DNA of 64,000 bases from Gammaproteobacteria bacterium (GTDB lineage Bacteria > Pseudomonadota > Gammaproteobacteria > Ga0077554 > Ga007554): positions 124,001-188,000 of the forward strand of contig JAMPIW010000004.1 in assembly GCA_040183005.1 (NCBI GenBank). The letters run 5' to 3'. The notes below the pieces were generated by a model that searched no databases, was not told the origin of the DNA, and worked only from the letters and a program-made list of their open reading frames with translations. Below are positions 37,239-63,524 of this stretch, piece by piece. A program made the translations under genes and the position numbers. Positions within the stretch are counted from its first letter, which is position 1; each line of letters begins with the position of its first letter.

Positions 37239-38915
37239 ATGAGCGAAGAAAAACTCCGTGCCGTGACGATGCTGTACGACAAGGATGGCTGCCCGCTGTT
37301 CAAATCCGTGCTTTCGCCTTCGGAAAACACCACCCGCGCCCTGTGTATCGTGCCCCCGGACGAGGTGTTTCCGGTGATCTTCGTGCCGGGCATCATGGGC
37401 TCCAATCTCAGGTTCAAGGTGTCAATCAAGGAGTTCAATATAGGGAAGGACATCGCATGGCGCCCCGATGATGTCTGGCATACAGCCTGGATGTTTGCAA
37501 ATTTGGAACCCGCACAGCGCCGTCTAATACTTGACCCGGAAAACACCGTACTGGACGACCGTGCCGAGATTCCCGACAGCAAACTTCCCGTTTTTAAAAC
37601 GGCAGACAAAGCCGCCCGTGAAAACTGGAAGAAAGAATACGCCCGGCGTGGCTGGGGCACGGTGATGCTCGACAGTTACGGTGAAATTCTCTACCACCTG
37701 GAACTGCACCTGAACGGTATTTACGACGACAACTACGCGCTGGCCGCCTATTGGCGGGAGCGCATTCTGGGGGCCAAGGCCGACACCGGCAATGATGGCA
37801 ACAGCAAACACCCGTGGGGCGTAATGAAGGGCCACACCGCCCTGACCGAGGACGACCTGAAAGAAAAAGTGGGCGATAAATACTGGTTTCCCGTCCACGC
37901 CGCAGGCTACAACTGGCTGCGCTCCAATGACGAGGCGGGCAAGGCGCTCGCCCGCCAGATCGACAAAATCATCGGTCATTACAAGAAACTCGGTTTTCCC
38001 TGCGAGAAAGTGATACTCGTCACCCATTCCATGGGCGGGCTGGCGGCACGCGCCGCGTGCCACCCCGAAATAGGCAATGCCGCCGCCAAGGTAGCGGGTA
38101 TCGTGCATGGCGAGCAACCCGCGATCGGCGCGGCAGCGGCCTACAAACGTATGCACGCGGGTTTTGAGGCGGGCGGGCTATTCAATATCGTCGGCCTGAT
38201 CATCGCCCGCGCCCTGGGCTGGTCGGGCAAGGAGGTCACGGCGGTGCTTTCGAATGCGCCGGGCGGCCTGGAGTTGCTGCCGACCAAACTGTATCCGCCG
38301 GGCTGGCTGCGCGTGCAGCACGGCGAAAAGGACATGATGCCGCCGCTGCCCGTGTCCAACCCCTATGCGGAAATCTATGCGGAAAAGGATAAGTGGTGGC
38401 GGTTGATGAATCCTGAGTGGATTGATCCGGGTAATGGTGATAAATCCTCCGATGCGGTAGATAAAATTTGGGATGATTATTTAGTACGGCTAGACACTGC
38501 CGAAAAATTCCACGACACCCTCGGCGCCTACTATCACCCGCTCACCCACGCCCATTACGGTGCGGATGAGAAAAACAAGGCGTGGAGCACCTTCACCTGG
38601 AAGCTGAAAGAATCCTGGTTCGGGGAGACGAAAGTAGGGGCCGGCACGGTGGATGCGCCGCCCTTGGAAAACGATGCCTTTGGCGAAGTCAAGGTAAAGT
38701 CTAACGGCATTACTGTGGAGTTCGGCATGCTGCCACCCGGCCAGCCCGGTGACGGCACCGTGCCCGAAATCTCGGGGGCTGCGTCAGCGTCCAAAGCCGC
38801 ATTCGCCGCCAAGATGACCGGCTACGAGCATCAGGGCAGCTACGAAAATCCCTGGGTGAAAGATGTCACCACCTACAGCGTGGCGCGCATCGCCAGGGAC
38901 AGTGATGGCAAATAA
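37239..38915 (+). CDS. Type VI lipase effector (Tle family, alpha/beta hydrolase)
   Basis: A 558-residue alpha/beta hydrolase. The N-terminal strand and oxyanion region reads VFPVIFVPGIMGSNLRF, and the nucleophile elbow is VTHSMGGLAARAA (GxSxG-like, with the Thr-His-Ser spelling of Tle effectors). The late acidic and histidine residues cannot be assigned with certainty; GDGTVPEIS and TGYEHQGSYENPW are candidates. It follows vgrG by three bases and overlaps an immunity lipoprotein gene, so it is inferred to be delivered by this VgrG into the periplasm of rival cells, where it would hydrolyse membrane phospholipids. Gene pairing with a Tli4-like protein suggests Tle4, but the subfamily needs a profile search. 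Confidence 0.83.
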   Translation: MSEEKLRAVTMLYDKDGCPLFKSVLSPSENTTRALCIVPPDEVFPVIFVPGIMGSNLRFKVSIKEFNIGKDIAWRPDDVWHTAWMFANLEPAQRRLILDPENTVLDDRAEIPDSKLPVFKTADKAARENWKKEYARRGWGTVMLDSYGEILYHLELHLNGIYDDNYALAAYWRERILGAKADTGNDGNSKHPWGVMKGHTALTEDDLKEKVGDKYWFPVHAAGYNWLRSNDEAGKALARQIDKIIGHYKKLGFPCEKVILVTHSMGGLAARAACHPEIGNAAAKVAGIVHGEQPAIGAAAAYKRMHAGFEAGGLFNIVGLIIARALGWSGKEVTAVLSNAPGGLELLPTKLYPPGWLRVQHGEKDMMPPLPVSNPYAEIYAEKDKWWRLMNPEWIDPGNGDKSSDAVDKIWDDYLVRLDTAEKFHDTLGAYYHPLTHAHYGADEKNKAWSTFTWKLKESWFGETKVGAGTVDAPPLENDAFGEVKVKSNGITVEFGMLPPGQPGDGTVPEISGAASASKAAFAAKMTGYEHQGSYENPWVKDVTTYSVARIARDSDGK

Positions 38916-39963
38916 ACACATGCCGCATCGCTCGATACGTATCAACAAACGGCGCCTGATCGGCGCCCTGTGTGCCGCTGTACTCATCGGCTGCACACCT
39001 AACTATGCAGGTGAAAAAATCATGACTGAACTGACGAAAACGATGCGGCCGGTGTGTGTGGGCCGATTTGTGGTGGAGATCCCCACGGCAGCGAGCATCA
39101 AGGGGTGGGATCAGAAAGTAGACATGTCAAAAATCGAAACGGTTTTTCCCCCGGCACTGAATAAAATGGCTTTCGAGAACAAGGTTGCTCAGCGTGAAAC
39201 ACTATTAAAAACTTCGCCGCATGAGACGGATGGTGTTTTATTTAAAAATAAAATTCAGTTGACCCCGGAAAGTGATTTATTTGTTTATCGGGAAAATGAG
39301 TCTAATCGTCGTATATTTGAACTTGAAGCATGGCTTTGGCGCCCCACACTTGAGATGAAATTTCATGCAGGAATCTCAGACCGAAATTTGGCAAGTGGAA
39401 TCGAACGCATCACCAAAGTAGTAAAAAGCTTCACTCCCCTGCCCACTTCGGACACAACGCACCTCCCCGCCGGTCTGTGCATAGAAAAAGGCATCATCAC
39501 CGGCAGCCATTTCCGCGCCGAAGAAGTCGCCATCGCGGGGCGTATTGACGCGTACCCCGGTGCGGGTTTCTCGTTTTCCACAAGAACAGCGGGCAAGCCA
39601 CACGAAGGCCCGACAATGATCCAACGCATCGACCGTTCATTCGGCTTGGGTGACTGGATCGGCAAAGAGGCCACTGCCGCGACGAAATTCCTGCGCAAAG
39701 GCAAGCGCAGTCTCAACGGCCAACAAGGCGAGGAATTGGTCGCCGTGTTCACAAAAAACGGTGAGATGCACATGCAGGCGGATGCGGAGTTTTACCCGGA
39801 GCCGAATACGCTGGACAAGCCTAGCATCAAAGTTTCATTGGGCGATCAAACACACGATGACAATACCCATGCCCGTTATCCAAAGAATCTCACACAGGAA
39901 GAGTTTCTCGCGCTGTGGGACGCGCTGCTGAATGGCATCAAGCTCAGGCCGGGCGCGATTTAA
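38905..39963 (+). CDS. Tli4-like immunity lipoprotein
   Basis: A 352-residue lipoprotein with lipobox LIGC (LIGALCAAVLIGC) and the mature start TPNYAGEK. The body begins with TKTMRPVCVGRFVVEIPTAA, typical of the N-terminal domain of T6SS Tli4 immunity proteins, and ends with a domain including GEMHMQADAEFYPEPNTLD. Immunity to periplasmic lipases is normally given by such lipoproteins. The ATG at 38905 overlaps the end of the lipase gene by 11 bases. The middle of the gene (about 39170-39400) is AT-richer than vgrG, consistent with separate ancestry. The stop overlaps the next ATG (TAATG). Confidence 0.82.
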   Translation: MANKHMPHRSIRINKRRLIGALCAAVLIGCTPNYAGEKIMTELTKTMRPVCVGRFVVEIPTAASIKGWDQKVDMSKIETVFPPALNKMAFENKVAQRETLLKTSPHETDGVLFKNKIQLTPESDLFVYRENESNRRIFELEAWLWRPTLEMKFHAGISDRNLASGIERITKVVKSFTPLPTSDTTHLPAGLCIEKGIITGSHFRAEEVAIAGRIDAYPGAGFSFSTRTAGKPHEGPTMIQRIDRSFGLGDWIGKEATAATKFLRKGKRSLNGQQGEELVAVFTKNGEMHMQADAEFYPEPNTLDKPSIKVSLGDQTHDDNTHARYPKNLTQEEFLALWDALLNGIKLRPGAI

Positions 39964-41084: not shown

Positions 41085-42710
41085 ATGAAAAACGTTGCCG
41101 AAGCAGCCCTGCAAGACGCTCCTGCCGCTCTCAAAAACTGGGCTGTGCTGGCGATGCAGCAGCTCGACGAAAAGAGTAACAAAGTACAACAGTTAAGCGA
41201 TCAACTGTCACTGCGCGACCAGCAGCTCAAACACGCCGACCTCAAAATCCAGGCCCTGACCTTCGAACTCGCCTACTACAAGCGCATTCGCTTTGCCAAC
41301 AAGAGCGAACAATTCTCCTTGGAGCAGCGCGAGTTGTTCGAGGAAAGCTGGAATACCGACACCAGTGCGCTGGAAGCCGAAGTGGAACAGCTGGCATCTA
41401 CCCAGCAACCCAAGCGCGAACGCGCCGGTCGCCAGCCGTTGCCGAATCATCTCGGCAACCGCTCCATGCGTTGCTCTACCTCCTGCATCCATGCAGTCGT
41501 CCCGCGCATCGAGCATCGCCACGAACCTGAGGGTTGCACCTGCGGCCAGTGCGGCAAGGATCTGGTCAAGATCGGCGAAGACATCAGCGAGCAACTGGAT
41601 GTCGAGCCCGCCCGCTTCTTCGTGCATCGCCACATTCGTCCGCAGTATGCTTGCCGTGCTTGTGAGACCGTCAGTGCGGCGCCGATTCCGCCGGCGGTCA
41701 TCGACGGCGGCATGGCGGCGCCGGGCTTGCTCACCTGGGTGATGGTCAGCAAATTCATGGATCACCTGCCTCTCTACCGGCTGGAGCAGATCGCGGCCCG
41801 CAGTGGGGTTACCCTGTCACGCTCCACCTTGGCCGAATGGGTAGGTCGCATTGGCGTGGCACTCCAGCCGCTGGCCGACCGGCTAGCTGAGATACTTCGC
41901 CAGCGCACCGTCTTGCACGCCGACGAGACCCCGGTGCAGCAACTCGACCCCGGACGGGGAAAAACGCTACGCGCCTTCCTCTGGGCCTACCGAAGTTGCG
42001 ATCTCGAACAGGGAGACCCCCTCGTCCTCTTCGACTACCAGACCGACCGGCGCGGCAAACATGCCAGGAACTTCCTGCAAGGCTGGAAGGGTGCCCTTAT
42101 GGTCGATGATTATGCCGGCTACAAAGGCCTGTTCGCCCACGCCGTGGTGGAACTGGCGTGCCTGGCCCATGCGCGGCGGAAATTCTACGATCTGCATGCC
42201 GCCCATCAGAGCCCGATTGCGGCCGAGGCATTGAAGCGCATTGCCGGACTCTATGCCATCGAAGATCAGGGCAAGACCCTGGGCATCGAAGATCGTCATG
42301 CATTACGCCAGCAACACGCCAAGCCGAAGCTGGACGAATTCCATGCCTGGCTCCAGCGCACACGGCTCACCACCGCCACGGGTAGCGGCACCGCCAAGGC
42401 CATCGACTACAGCCTCAAACGCTGGGATGCAATCAAGCGCTACCTCGGGGATGGCCGTTACCCCATCGACAACAACCCGGTGGAAAATGCTATCCGTCCT
42501 ATTGCGCTTGGTAAAAAGAATTGGCTGTTCACCGGCAGTGAACGCGCGGGCCGCCGCGCCGCCGCCATCCAGAGCCTGTTCGCAACGGCGAAACTCAACG
42601 GCATCGAGCCGGCTGCCTGGCTGAAGGATACGCTGGAGAAACTGCCGACCTGGCCTAACAGCCGCATTGATGATCTGCTGCCATTGCGGTCTGTACAGGC
42701 ATCAGGCTGA
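41085..42710 (+). CDS. tnpC: IS66 transposase TnpC (DDE)
   Basis: A 541-residue DDE transposase. A leucine-zipper-like coiled coil (about 20-75) is followed by a zinc-finger region (CTCGQCGKDLVKIGED and YACRACE). The catalytic domain includes the Asp in LHADETPVQQL, the Asp in LMVDDYAGYKG, and the Glu in NPVENAIRPIALGKKNWLF, plus a C-terminal TnpC domain. Full length and uninterrupted, so the element may still be able to move. Confidence 0.96.
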   Translation: MKNVAEAALQDAPAALKNWAVLAMQQLDEKSNKVQQLSDQLSLRDQQLKHADLKIQALTFELAYYKRIRFANKSEQFSLEQRELFEESWNTDTSALEAEVEQLASTQQPKRERAGRQPLPNHLGNRSMRCSTSCIHAVVPRIEHRHEPEGCTCGQCGKDLVKIGEDISEQLDVEPARFFVHRHIRPQYACRACETVSAAPIPPAVIDGGMAAPGLLTWVMVSKFMDHLPLYRLEQIAARSGVTLSRSTLAEWVGRIGVALQPLADRLAEILRQRTVLHADETPVQQLDPGRGKTLRAFLWAYRSCDLEQGDPLVLFDYQTDRRGKHARNFLQGWKGALMVDDYAGYKGLFAHAVVELACLAHARRKFYDLHAAHQSPIAAEALKRIAGLYAIEDQGKTLGIEDRHALRQQHAKPKLDEFHAWLQRTRLTTATGSGTAKAIDYSLKRWDAIKRYLGDGRYPIDNNPVENAIRPIALGKKNWLFTGSERAGRRAAAIQSLFATAKLNGIEPAAWLKDTLEKLPTWPNSRIDDLLPLRSVQASG

Positions 42711-47161: not shown

Positions 47162-47905
47162 ATGAGCCAATACCCTGTACACATTTATAACGGCGTCGAT
47201 GCGTTAAGCCGCGCCGCCGCGCAACGCTGGATTGAGCTTGCAGATCAGGCCATCCAGGCGCGAGGGCAATTCCATATCGCACTCTCCGGCGGCACGACCC
47301 CGCGCAGCCTGTATGAGCGCCTGACTGCACCGGAGTTTGCCGGGCGCGTGGACTGGCGGCATGTCCATGTCTGGTTCGGCGACGAGCGCAGCGTCCCCCC
47401 CGATCACCCCGACAGCAATTACCGCATGGCCTGTGAGGCGTTGTTGAGCCATGTGCCGATTCCGCCCACGCAAGTGCATCGTATCGAGGCCGAGAAAGAC
47501 GGTGCCGCACAGGCCTATGAGGCCCTGATTACCGCCTCTATTCCAAGTCCTGTAGCAGGCGTGGCGCAATTTGACCTGATCCTGCTCGGGCTGGGACCAG
47601 ATGGCCATGTAGCATCGCTGTTTCCCGACACAGCCATTCTCCAGGAGCGCATACGCCAGGTTGCTGCCGTGTATGTTGATAAGCTGAACACCTGGCGCAT
47701 CAGCCTGACGCTGCCGGTTATCGACAACGCCAGGCACATCATGATATTTGTGGCAGGGGCAGGAAAAGCGGAGATCATGCGCCAGATACTCACGGAAGAC
47801 CCGCGTACCGTACCGTATCCCGTGCAAATGATTCGTCCCGCCGGGATGTTCGATTGGTATCTCGACGCCGCCGCCGCGCAGGCATTGCCGGAGGCCCAGC
47901 CATGA
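47162..47905 (+). CDS. pgl: 6-phosphogluconolactonase Pgl
   Basis: A 247-residue cytosolic enzyme of the oxidative pentose phosphate and Entner-Doudoroff pathways. It belongs to the DevB/SOL type: FHIALSGGTTPRSLYERL, VHVWFGDERSVPPDHPDSNY, and LILLGLGPDGHVASLFPDT with the catalytic-site residues. It overlaps glk by four bases (ATGA), so the two are translated together and form a glucose-6-phosphate branch. Zwf is not in the window. Confidence 0.96.
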   Translation: MSQYPVHIYNGVDALSRAAAQRWIELADQAIQARGQFHIALSGGTTPRSLYERLTAPEFAGRVDWRHVHVWFGDERSVPPDHPDSNYRMACEALLSHVPIPPTQVHRIEAEKDGAAQAYEALITASIPSPVAGVAQFDLILLGLGPDGHVASLFPDTAILQERIRQVAAVYVDKLNTWRISLTLPVIDNARHIMIFVAGAGKAEIMRQILTEDPRTVPYPVQMIRPAGMFDWYLDAAAAQALPEAQP

Positions 47906-48948
47906 GGGTGCTGGCGGGCGATCTCGGCGGCACCAAGACACTGCTGCAAATAGCGGATCTCAACGGCAAAGATTATCAGGTTCTGCACGAGCAACGCCTG
48001 GAAAACTGTCATTACAGCGAGTTACTGCCGCTGATCCAGGATTTTCTGCACGCCGCGCCCGTAGCATCCGGCATTGAACATGCCTGCATTGCCGTTGCCG
48101 GCCCCATCAGCACAACCGCCACCGGCCAATACGCAAAGGTCACCAATCTGCCTTGGCACATTGACGCCCAGCCGCTCGCCGCTGCACTTAACATCCCCCG
48201 GCTGTCCCTGATCAACGACTTTCAGGCGGTGGGGTACGGCATCGAGACGCTTGCAGCGGATGACATTTCTGTGTTGCAGGCCAGCCAGCCACAACCCCAT
48301 GCGCCACGCATGATTATCGGCGCGGGCACCGGCCTGGGCGTGGGTCAAATGATCTGGCAAGGCGAGCGCTACGAAGTCATCCCCTCCGAGGGCGGCCATG
48401 CCGATTTTGCCCCCGTGGACGAAGCGCAGATCGGGCTGCTGCGCTATATGCAGCGCCACTATGCCCATGTCTCCTACGACCGCATCCTGTCCGGACCGGG
48501 GCTGGCGCATATCTACTCTTTTTTGCATGAAACCGCCGGCGCATCACCTGCCGAGTTACAGAAAATCATGCAACACCCCGACCCCGGAGCGGAGATCTCC
48601 GCGTCCGCCGGTATTGGTGGAGACCCCTTGGCACGCGCCGCGCTGGACATGTTTGTATCGATCTACGGCGCACAGGCGGGTAACCTCGCCCTCATCAATC
48701 TGGCCTTTGGCGGAGTCTACATCGCCGGAGGCATTGCCCCCAAAATCCTGAGCCACATCACCTCCGGCGCGTTCATGCGCGCCTTCACCAACAAAGGCAG
48801 GATGTCTACGCTGTTGGGCAGCGTGCCTGTGTATATAATCATCAATCCCAAGGTGGGGCTGATGGGTGCGGCGCTGGCTGCGGCGCGTCTTTGTGGAGTG
48901 ATTGCACAACCAGGCAGTTCCACACCACGCGAATATATTGTCATGTAG
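47902..48948 (+). CDS. glk: Glucokinase
   Basis: A 348-residue ATP-dependent glucokinase. Phosphate 1 motif LAGDLGGTKT, glucose-contact INDFQAVGYGIETL with catalytic Asp, phosphate 2 IGAGTGLGVGQM, the EGGHADFAP segment, and the adenosine region GGVYIAGGIAPKI are all visible. The last 40 residues are somewhat longer than in the E. coli enzyme. It overlaps pgl by four bases. Confidence 0.95.
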   Translation: MRVLAGDLGGTKTLLQIADLNGKDYQVLHEQRLENCHYSELLPLIQDFLHAAPVASGIEHACIAVAGPISTTATGQYAKVTNLPWHIDAQPLAAALNIPRLSLINDFQAVGYGIETLAADDISVLQASQPQPHAPRMIIGAGTGLGVGQMIWQGERYEVIPSEGGHADFAPVDEAQIGLLRYMQRHYAHVSYDRILSGPGLAHIYSFLHETAGASPAELQKIMQHPDPGAEISASAGIGGDPLARAALDMFVSIYGAQAGNLALINLAFGGVYIAGGIAPKILSHITSGAFMRAFTNKGRMSTLLGSVPVYIIINPKVGLMGAALAAARLCGVIAQPGSSTPREYIVM

Positions 48949-49349
48949 AACTGGGCGGTAACCGGCATCAGGATTAAACTTCTCGAGTTCTTGTTACTCT
49001 GTGCCAACCCGTAACCCGCATTCCAGGTGATTGGTGTGCAGCGCCACGCTGGGATAAGATAAAAATCAGGGGTGCAGCACGCCGGGGGAGGCTTAGCAGG
49101 CCGCCTAGCGTGCACCAAAACCAGTCCTTGTGCCCGTTATGAAAGTAAAACAGCAGGATAAAATACCTTGTATACTATTTGCGTCAGCGCAGCGCCGGGA
49201 ACACATGATTAAAGCGTGCTGCGCAAGCAGAGTGGGGTGACGGTTATTTTATATAAGTTATTGTTTTTGTATCTTTATATATAAAGATATACTTGCTTTG
49301 TAATCAGTAGGCCGGGGGCTCGGCTCCTTCCGCCAGCATCATAAAATAA
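48949..49349. other. Non-coding stretch between glk and the J-domain gene
   Basis: 401 bases without a supported gene. A long hairpin lies at 49071-49116 (CACGC/GCGTG, extended by GGTG/CACC). TATACT at 49171-49176 is a good -10 but no -35 is seen. The end, 49240-49296, is very AT-rich and leads directly into a tRNA-like fragment (49297-49341). Confidence 0.6.
49297..49341 (+). repeat. Decayed 3' end of tRNA-Thr (TGT), likely attachment-site scar
   Basis: TTTGTAATCAGTAG matches the anticodon arm of tRNA-Thr(TGT). It is followed by a T-arm-like GGGGGCTCGGCTCC and an acceptor CGCCAGC-ATCA end in place of CGCCAGCACCA. Only 45 bases of tRNA are present: the 5' half is absent, and several substitutions break the conserved TTCGA and CCA. 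This is what an integrating element leaves when it duplicates the 3' end of a tRNA gene. Confidence 0.65.
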
Positions 49350-50864
49350 ATGAAAAAAACGCTTTACGATATTTTTGAGGTGAGCCCGGACGCCAATCCT
49401 GAGGCCATCAGAAACACTTACAAAAGCCTGGTGCAGCGTCACCACCCCGATAAAAATCAGGGTGATCCGCATGCTGAAGAGGTTCTCAAGGCGATCAACT
49501 TCGCCTACGGCGTCCTTTCCGACCCCATGAAGCGCCTGGCTTATGATGCCAGCCTCGCTGCCATTCAGGGCGTGCAAAATCCCGTTATCCCTTCAGAAGA
49601 TACTCCCCCAGAGGCTGCGGGCAAGCGGGCTGATGCTCGGCGCCGGGGCGCCAATGCCAATGGGGGGGGGGGCGTTTCGGCCTCCGAAACTGTTGAGTCC
49701 GAAGTGGAGCAGGTAGTACGTGTGCCCGCTCAGTCAAAGAATCGCCTGGTAGTAATGCTGCTGCTGGCGTTGCTGATAGGCGCCGTTCTGGTGTCGCTGT
49801 TGCCGGGAGGAGGTGGCCAGGATGATGTTACCTCACTTGCCGTCACGAAACCCGAGCATAAGCTTGATGTTGCGTCGGGTGATCAGGCAGCGCCAGCACT
49901 CCGTTCCTTGACGGAAGTGCGCCCCGTGCCAGACCGGCAGGCGACTCAAATTGCGCGTAGCGATAGTGAGAGACGCGCCAGTACGCAGACTGGTCAGCAA
50001 AATGTCGATGCTCTTCCCAATAAGCCGCAGGCTAAGGCTGAAGTGGTCGCCCGAATGCCTATCGTCAGGCAGAACAACGTTGCGGCACAGAGCGCCAAAA
50101 TTCAACCGACACCCCAGCCCTCCCTTGCTGCACGGAAGGGCATTGAAACGCCTAACGCCAAGCCTAAGGACGCTGTTCATCCTTTGCAGCCGCCTGCCGG
50201 GCCGCAGGCCAAGGCGAATGAGGGCAGCAAGAAACCAGTCAGTGAGCAGGGTAAAGCCGTGGCCATCAATACGCAAGGCGATGCAAAGCGCCAAGGTATT
50301 CCTGTACGGCCTTCGCCTCAAACGGGAGAGTTACCGGGCAAGGCTGTAGCCCAGGGCACAAAAACTCAACCGACACCCCAGATCTCCCTTGATACACGGG
50401 AGGGTGTTAAAACGCCGAATACCAAGCCCAAGGACGTTGTGCAGCGGCCTGCCGCCGATGCAAGTCAGCGAAGTATCCCTCCAGAGCAGTTTGCCCTGCA
50501 AGCGGAAGAGTTACCCGACAAAACCGCGGCCCAGAGAGATCCCATGGCACAGTACAAAAAAGGAATAATGTATGAGAAGGGGCAGGGTCTGCCGCAGGAT
50601 TTCAGTCAAGCTGCCCATTGGTACCGCCAGGCTGCCGAGCAAGGAATAGCCGATGCCCAATATCGTCTCGGAAAACTTTATACCGTGGGCAAGGGTGTGC
50701 CGATAGACAATTCCGAGGCCTACGCATGGCTGAGTCTAGCGGCTGCGGGCAACGTCGAAGCGGCGAAACCCATAGTGGATTATCTTGCCAGCACCATGAC
50801 GCCGGAGCAGCTCGCCAACGCCAAACGCAGGGCGGCGGCATTGCGGGCGCGGCATAAGCGTTAA
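49350..50864 (+). CDS. Membrane-anchored J-domain protein with Sel1 repeats
   Basis: A 504-residue protein. The J domain (about 3-70) has HPD at 32-34 in QRHHPDKNQGDP, so it should stimulate a DnaK-type chaperone. One membrane helix follows at about 131-150 (LVVMLLLALLIGAVLVSLLP). A long Pro/Ala/Lys/Gln-rich linker (about 155-395) contains two diverged copies of a unit TQPTPQxSLxxRxGxxTPNxKPKD. Two Sel1 repeats end the protein (DPMAQYKKGIMYEKGQGLPQ, then ADAQYRLGKLYTVGKG). With the J domain inside, the linker and repeats would be periplasmic. The ATG has no good ribosome binding site and follows the tRNA scar by nine bases. Its stop codon is also a transposition duplication. Confidence 0.82.
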   Translation: MKKTLYDIFEVSPDANPEAIRNTYKSLVQRHHPDKNQGDPHAEEVLKAINFAYGVLSDPMKRLAYDASLAAIQGVQNPVIPSEDTPPEAAGKRADARRRGANANGGGGVSASETVESEVEQVVRVPAQSKNRLVVMLLLALLIGAVLVSLLPGGGGQDDVTSLAVTKPEHKLDVASGDQAAPALRSLTEVRPVPDRQATQIARSDSERRASTQTGQQNVDALPNKPQAKAEVVARMPIVRQNNVAAQSAKIQPTPQPSLAARKGIETPNAKPKDAVHPLQPPAGPQAKANEGSKKPVSEQGKAVAINTQGDAKRQGIPVRPSPQTGELPGKAVAQGTKTQPTPQISLDTREGVKTPNTKPKDVVQRPAADASQRSIPPEQFALQAEELPDKTAAQRDPMAQYKKGIMYEKGQGLPQDFSQAAHWYRQAAEQGIADAQYRLGKLYTVGKGVPIDNSEAYAWLSLAAAGNVEAAKPIVDYLASTMTPEQLANAKRRAAALRARHKR

Positions 50865-51005
50865 GAACCTGTTCACGATCTCGATCAAGGGATGCAGCGC
50901 AAGGCATAAATGGCCGAAAAAGCGCAGCATACAAGTAGTATGTGAGCATTTTGAGGCCATTTTTAACGCCGCGATGCGCCCTTCAGCGAGATCGTGAACA
51001 GGTTC
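50865..51005 (+). mobile_element. Miniature inverted-repeat element (141 bp, TAA duplication)
   Basis: GAACCTGTTCACGATCTCG (50865-50883) and its exact complement at 50987-51005 form 19-bp perfect terminal repeats. TAA at 50862-50864 and 51006-51008 is a 3-bp duplication; the left TAA is also the stop codon of the J-domain gene. The interior carries no gene. End sequence and TNA duplication suggest mobilisation by an IS5-family transposase of the IS1031 type. Confidence 0.88.
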
Positions 51006-51011
51006 TAAGAG

Positions 51012-51332
51012 TCAATCCCAGCGGTCGTCCCGCACCTGTATTTCATTATCCTCTACCCGCACCGGGAAAGTGGCGGTGGGCTCATAGGCAGGAGCGGTCA
51101 ATGCCTCGCCGGTCTTGATGCAAAAGCGTGCGCCGTGACGGGGGCAAACGATGACGTCGCAGTCAATCTTGCCGCCGGTCAACAGCCCCCCGTCGTGGGT
51201 GCACACGTCCTCGATGGCGTAATATTCTCCGTCGATATTGAAGGTGGCGATCAGCACGCCATCGACATCGATAACCTTGCATGCTCCAGGGGCGATTTCA
51301 CCCGTTTTGGCGACGGTGATCCAATCAGACAT
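51012..51332 (-). CDS. Rieske-type [2Fe-2S] ferredoxin
   Basis: A small soluble Rieske protein of 106 residues. Cluster ligands are CTH in EDVCTHDGGLL and CPRH in VIVCPRHGARFCIKTG. The wording is close to the ferredoxin parts of ring-hydroxylating dioxygenases and to NirD-like proteins. It has no membrane anchor. The ATG at 51332 (MSDWITVAKTGEI) was preferred to an in-frame codon at 51356 because the conserved fold starts there. Its partner oxygenase or reductase is not nearby; the gene is 128 bases downstream of lpdA on the same strand. Confidence 0.92.
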   Translation of the reverse strand: MSDWITVAKTGEIAPGACKVIDVDGVLIATFNIDGEYYAIEDVCTHDGGLLTGGKIDCDVIVCPRHGARFCIKTGEALTAPAYEPTATFPVRVEDNEIQVRDDRWD

Positions 51333-51460
51333 GATGTTTCTCAAAAGTAGACTCATTGCCGGCTAATCCGACCCACGAATAAGCGGGCCTATATTCAATA
51401 CTGCTCACTTAACTACCGCGCCGAATAATAACAACATGGATCTCGATTATAGCGCACCAA

Positions 51461-63174: not shown

Positions 63175-63238
63175 TTTGAGGGGGTCGTTGTTTTACAGTG
63201 CTTGCTGGCTTATGGTCCAATCATATGGTTTTGGATAA

Positions 63239-63524
63239 ACCTAAAAACGGCGATTCACCGTATGCGTCCAGGCGCGGAAACTGTTACGACAATGCGCCGA
63301 TGGCGAGCTTCTGGGGGAGTCTAAAGAATGAACTGGTGCATCACCGGCGATATGCCACCCGTGCAGAGGCAGAAGCCTCCATCCGGGAGTACATCGAGAT
63401 TTTTTATAATCGCCAAAGGCGTCACTCGCGCCTTGGCTATGTTGCCCCGGCTGTGTTTGCGGATAATTTCATCAAACAACAGGCCGGCGCTTGAAGCGGG
63501 TATGTCCGTTATTGACAGGACACC
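63239..63524 (+). pseudogene. 3' fragment of an IS3-family transposase (OrfB)
   Basis: From about 63258 the frame reads SPYASRRGNCYDNAPMASFW, then SLKNELVHHRRYATRAEAEA, YIEIFYNRQRRHSRLGYVAP and a stop at 63494, the end of an IS3 OrfB. The DDE glutamate is Ala (NAPMASF for NAPMESF) and the upstream catalytic part is missing. TGTCCGTTATTGACAGGACA at 63503 may mark the old right end. The left junction carries ACCTAAAAACGGC (63239-63251). Confidence 0.8.

Follow-up and report, generated by a model that had tools for sequence, protein, structure and literature searches.

A degraded copy of the 3' half of a tRNA-Thr(TGT) gene stands directly in front of a DnaJ-domain gene with Sel1 repeats (dnaJ-Sel1), and we consider it very likely that an old integration at tRNA-Thr(TGT) displaced this end, that the element has since been lost and the two halves have moved apart, and that the leftover fragment is now decaying. 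The window analyzed is a stretch of 64,000 nucleotides (G000:C4:124001-188000) from a genome of 3.33 Mb in nine contigs. Its genus is sampled by this genome (G000) together with G001, G002, and G003, while G004, G005, G006, and G007 are the other genomes of the family. In window coordinates, the features that concern us are the following:

47854..48948, forward strand: glucokinase, which flanks the fragment on the left here but in none of the other three genus genomes.
49133..49183, forward strand: conserved upstream block from the four-species alignment, a possible dnaJ-Sel1 promoter region (putative role).
49240..49293, unstranded: AT-rich tract with a perfect 20-base palindrome at 49270-49289, the proposed remnant of the element's arm.
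49294..49341, forward strand: degraded tRNA-Thr(TGT) 3' fragment, tRNA positions 29-76, proposed to be the 3' half (attR core) that an old integration displaced.
49350..50864, forward strand: dnaJ-Sel1 (DnaJ domain and Sel1 repeats by Pfam; chaperone-like), with orthologues in the family and the fragment directly in front.
51012..51356, reverse strand: Rieske ferredoxin-like gene, which adjoins dnaJ also in G002, G003, and G005.
63198..63494, forward strand: truncated rve-type (IS3-like) transposase between pilR and an SNF2-type helicase gene, at a synteny break against G003.

A BLAST comparison of the stretch with the whole genome matched it to tRNA-Thr(TGT) at C4:201692-201739, with 83% identity over 48 bases (E 1.0e-7). 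When the tRNA served as the query, window 49294-49341 (C4:173294-173341) corresponded to positions 29-76 of 76 (83%, E 1e-7 to 6e-8), so that the fragment begins on the 5' side of the anticodon loop and includes the remainder of the tRNA through its 3' end, as expected of an attR-type scar cut at a known crossover place. Decay has blurred its left edge by a few bases. The resemblance to the 3' half of tRNA-Thr(TGT) claimed in an earlier note on this DNA is thus genuine, as is the AT-rich tract beside it, where GC content falls to 18% at 49250-49309 against approximately 45–65% in most surrounding 60-base steps. The same note described a broken T-arm and CCA; read from the sequence, the T-stem is not broken but degraded (it forms five pairs, of which two are G-U, and the T-loop is altered), and the terminal CCA has become TCA. 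Rfam at gathering scores reported nothing in the window, and a permissive Rfam scan of 601 bases gave a single sub-threshold match, which was unrelated.

In all four genus genomes the fragment precedes the same dnaJ-Sel1 gene, and a search of 56 genomes (our own included) detected fragment plus upstream sequence in these four alone. At E 1e-10, the upstream block and fragment were recovered together from 3 of 274 genomes of the class (our own, G001, and G003), a sample outside which G002 may lie. The scar is at least as old as the sampled genus. In G005, which belongs to another genus of the same family, the order is birA-coaX-SPOR-tRNA-Thr(TGT)-dnaJ-Rieske with the tRNA intact, and the SPOR-tRNA-Thr(TGT)-dnaJ-Rieske portion of this order provides the uninterrupted site to which an attR-type scar should correspond. 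An alignment of our genome with G005 at the site consists of just two pieces, the tRNA 3' half and the start of dnaJ, and the gene after the Rieske gene is common to G002, G003, and G005. The intact tRNA-Thr(TGT) of our genome (C4:201664-201739) lies on the same strand, 28.4 kb downstream of the fragment, preceded by birA (identified by Pfam) and by two genes that we take to be coaX and SPOR; Pfam returned no match for the SPOR gene. An intact tRNA follows birA and coaX in G003 and G004 as well.

The SPOR-tRNA-dnaJ order may not be ancestral to the whole family, because dnaJ stands beside glucokinase, without tRNA or tRNA fragment, in the third genus (G004, G006, and G007). The gene next after dnaJ in G004 and G006 comes after glucokinase in G005. 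A coaX tree built for the branching order gave weak guidance: our genus was joined to G005 with a support of 0.33 (FastTree), and a second tree did not resolve the grouping. We also observed that the G001 assembly, although rated 100% complete, contains no tRNA-Thr(TGT) gene, perhaps owing to an assembly gap.

We propose that in the ancestor of the genus an integrative element would have recombined into tRNA-Thr(TGT), which at that time would have stood directly upstream of dnaJ-Sel1 in the order birA-coaX-SPOR-tRNA-dnaJ-Rieske, as in G005. With a crossover within the anticodon-loop region, the 3'-half copy brought by the element would have restored a complete tRNA gene on the SPOR side, and the original 3' half would have been displaced, remaining before dnaJ with element sequence ahead of it. 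The element would later have been lost, and chromosomal rearrangements would have separated the intact tRNA from the displaced half, differently in each species. No genome searched retains an element between SPOR-tRNA and fragment-dnaJ. An integrase presumably made this particular cut, and the order of the later rearrangements is likewise a reconstruction.

Islands at tRNA-Thr genes do occur in the family, among them the following:

G004:C6:156464-245350 (L148, L204-L207, L149): 88.8-kb conjugative-type island at tRNA-Thr(TGT), with the integrase beside the tRNA.

From the tRNA onward, this region holds a tyrosine integrase, a TraI_2 relaxase, TraD-, TraC-, and TraG-type genes, and ParA, and then a tRNA fragment 88.8 kb downstream; it also carries two methylase/restriction-type genes and a protein with a NACHT-type C-terminal domain. 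By eye, what lies beyond its fragment looks similar to the sequence that follows the intact tRNA in G006. On contig C53 of G002 (L146:7654-13247), a 5.5-kb insert extends from tRNA-Thr(TGT) to a fragment and bears Abi_2, DNA methylase, and ResIII genes, with no integrase among its three long reading frames. The fragments of both islands, at G004:C6 and G002:C53, are 100% identical to the tRNA, and they begin at tRNA positions 29 and 31, respectively. A further fragment on contig C41 of G002 lies approximately 10 kb from a second tRNA-Thr-like gene that has an integrase beside it, and in G003 a truncated tyrosine integrase lies approximately 160 bases after the intact tRNA-Thr(TGT), although this remnant could derive from a later element. 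Across these sites, the fragments start at position 29 (our genome), 29 (G004), 31 and 32 (G002), and 38 (G004:C7), mostly at the anticodon loop. The earlier note's reading, a scar of element integration at tRNA-Thr(TGT), is therefore supported by the uninterrupted site in G005, by family islands whose fragments are cut at nearly the same place, and by the truncated integrase next to the intact tRNA of G003.

The place of the cut also bears on whether an integrase is needed at all, since an ordinary rearrangement, either IS-mediated or homologous, might have broken the tRNA-dnaJ neighborhood and truncated a copy of tRNA-Thr at a random point. Such an origin would suit a region that is much rearranged, in which the left neighbor of the fragment varies by species and an IS3-like remnant lies at one break. 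However, the cut in our fragment coincides approximately with that in the other tRNA-Thr fragments found in the family, a random cut would come within two bases of that place with a chance that we estimate ourselves at about 5 in 76, and the intact gene retains a perfect 3' half, as it does upon integration. We therefore regard an origin without an integrase as unlikely.

The rearrangements themselves are evident from the left neighbor of the fragment, which is glucokinase in our genome, an SNF2-type helicase in G002 and G003, and a trypsin/PDZ protease in G001. The helicase block of G003 leads into the fragment; in our genome the block is found beyond the pilSR-type genes in the opposite orientation, with the truncated rve-type transposase at the junction. 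Rearrangements of this sort, if later than the integration, would account for the wrong order of fragment and tRNA here. Elsewhere in the window (37239-39963), an alpha/beta hydrolase-type gene adjoins a Tli4-type immunity gene, which we presume to be suggestive of a type VI secretion effector pair, and an IS66 transposase gene follows this pair at 41085-42710.

A simple island of 28.4 kb between fragment and tRNA was considered and rejected. The interval carries core genes (2-oxoglutarate dehydrogenase, uvrD, pilSR-type genes, birA, and coaX), no integrase lies between the tRNA and the fragment, and the configuration is reversed, the fragment being upstream of the tRNA instead of downstream in the same orientation; for these reasons the interval is not the island. 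A search of our genome with PF00589 gave five matches, none of which is on contig C4, and tblastn with the integrases of G003 and G004 against C4:124001-226000 returned chance-level matches only. Thus, the intact tRNA-Thr(TGT) that the earlier note proposed to look for across an island is indeed present on the same contig, but it is on the wrong side and core genes lie between. At another location in the genome (G000:C1:116814-117494), a tyrosine integrase match sits beside a tRNA-like match on the opposite strand, possibly marking another tRNA-borne element.

Because the 28.4 kb is flanked by direct copies of the tRNA 3' half, one may speculate that recombination between the copies would release a circle bearing the same SPOR-tRNA-dnaJ junction as G005. 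The glucokinase gene of G002 adjoins genes that in our genome stand just beyond the 28.4-kb segment. We give the circle little weight because in both G002 and G003 the helicase block joins the fragment the other way round, with extra breaks.

The state of decay of the fragment was assessed from an alignment of the four genus genomes (six pairs). Pairwise differences amount to 7–14 of 42 bases in the fragment (17–33%) and to 18–23% at the four-fold sites of the neighboring glucokinase gene. On the other flank, the 11-base spacer before dnaJ shows zero differences in this alignment, and 2–8 of the first 99 bases of dnaJ differ. The intact tRNA is identical in our genome, G002, G003, G004, and G006. 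We read the fragment as decaying, not functional, because its divergence is at or above that of four-fold sites while the intact tRNA is identical in five genomes; judged from sequence divergence, it is drifting approximately neutrally and appears to be functionless.

These comparisons also speak against the idea that the fragment functions in the dnaJ leader as an RNA or DNA element (for example, as a tRNA-like structure or an attachment site still retained for use), which we consider very improbable. Although the fragment has been retained in all four genus genomes and in our own ends 8 bases before the start of dnaJ-Sel1, it has diverged to this extent between two conserved flanks, and the T-arm registers read from the four-genome alignment vary between species. 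The 169-base leader folds somewhat better than its shuffles (z -1.83), but 10 of 200 shuffles folded equally well. There is almost no chance that the fragment is a REP-like repeat or a tRNA gene that is unusual yet complete, both of which we rejected: only its tRNA resemblance speaks for either, whereas ARAGORN left both the window and the homologous loci L012-L015 without a tRNA call, our genome has an intact TGT gene, and the fragment is single-copy, matching outside its own site nothing but tRNA genes in the search of our genome. A dispersed repeat is present nearby, namely a near-palindromic stretch of 136 bases directly after dnaJ-Sel1 (window 50868-51003), with 28 matches at E 1e-5 in our genome, one of which is its own reverse match. 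In G004, a stretch resembling this repeat sits between glucokinase and dnaJ.

The sequence ahead of the fragment may derive from the element. The AT-rich tract is alignable in G003 and G001 and mostly deleted in G002; apart from the self-match of the palindrome, the tract and its upstream sequence occur once in our genome. Compared with phage records, the AT-rich, palindromic arm gave no match, and compared with plasmids it gave only one, of 34 bases over the AT-rich part of the arm in a Pasteurella plasmid, which we take as chance. Farther upstream, the block at 49133-49183 is identical at 43–48 of 51 bases across the six pairs of the four species, and the 3–8 of 51 bases that differ stand against 17–33% in the fragment and 18–23% at four-fold sites. 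By this measure, the upstream block and the start region of dnaJ look to be under constraint.

Such constraint would be in keeping with a regulatory role, and the block may be the promoter of dnaJ. Since the block was not seen in G005 when our genome was aligned with it, and since a simple sigma-70 consensus scan found no promoter in the block, this role is one that we infer. A bolder and more doubtful proposal is that the end of the lost element became the promoter of dnaJ-Sel1 once integration had severed the gene from the tRNA and its upstream region, and that this arrangement was fixed and kept under selection throughout the genus while the fragment decayed.

The fragment is a new example of a well-known and ordinary kind of feature, of which the age and the scrambled context are mildly interesting. 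As an integration fossil it can be roughly dated: its age is at least that of the sampled genus, it changes at about the pace of silent sites, a relative has the site uninterrupted, and sister species carry islands at this tRNA. Fossils of this sort can serve for timing old integrations and for tracking the rearrangements that followed, and they show how a mobile element may durably alter what precedes a host gene.

Among known systems, our fragment resembles the tRNA-gene islands of Islander, in which the gene is regenerated and a 3' fragment displaced. In the account of that method (PMC4383910), the anticodon loop is one of the listed crossover sites, the displaced 3' fragment is expected downstream of the regenerated tRNA gene, and candidates with the reverse arrangement or without an integrase are rejected. 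Our fragment shares the cut at the anticodon loop, and islands of this kind exist in the family (G004 and G002). It differs in that its island has been lost, that it stands upstream of the intact gene, and that the interval contains no integrase, and so the configuration and integrase filters, as given there, would reject it. Non-canonical partial tRNA genes have likewise been attributed to mobile-element integration (PMC9897764), whereas our fragment is too old and decayed for ARAGORN and is common to the whole sampled genus. Finally, integrase-driven inversions at tRNA genes are described for Thermococcus, with the recombinase shown biochemically (PMC5495485). Common to both cases are tRNA genes that are integrase targets at the edges of chromosomal rearrangements; the Thermococcus system is archaeal, whereas the rearrangements in our genome have no recombinase linked to them, and one of their junctions carries an IS3-like remnant.
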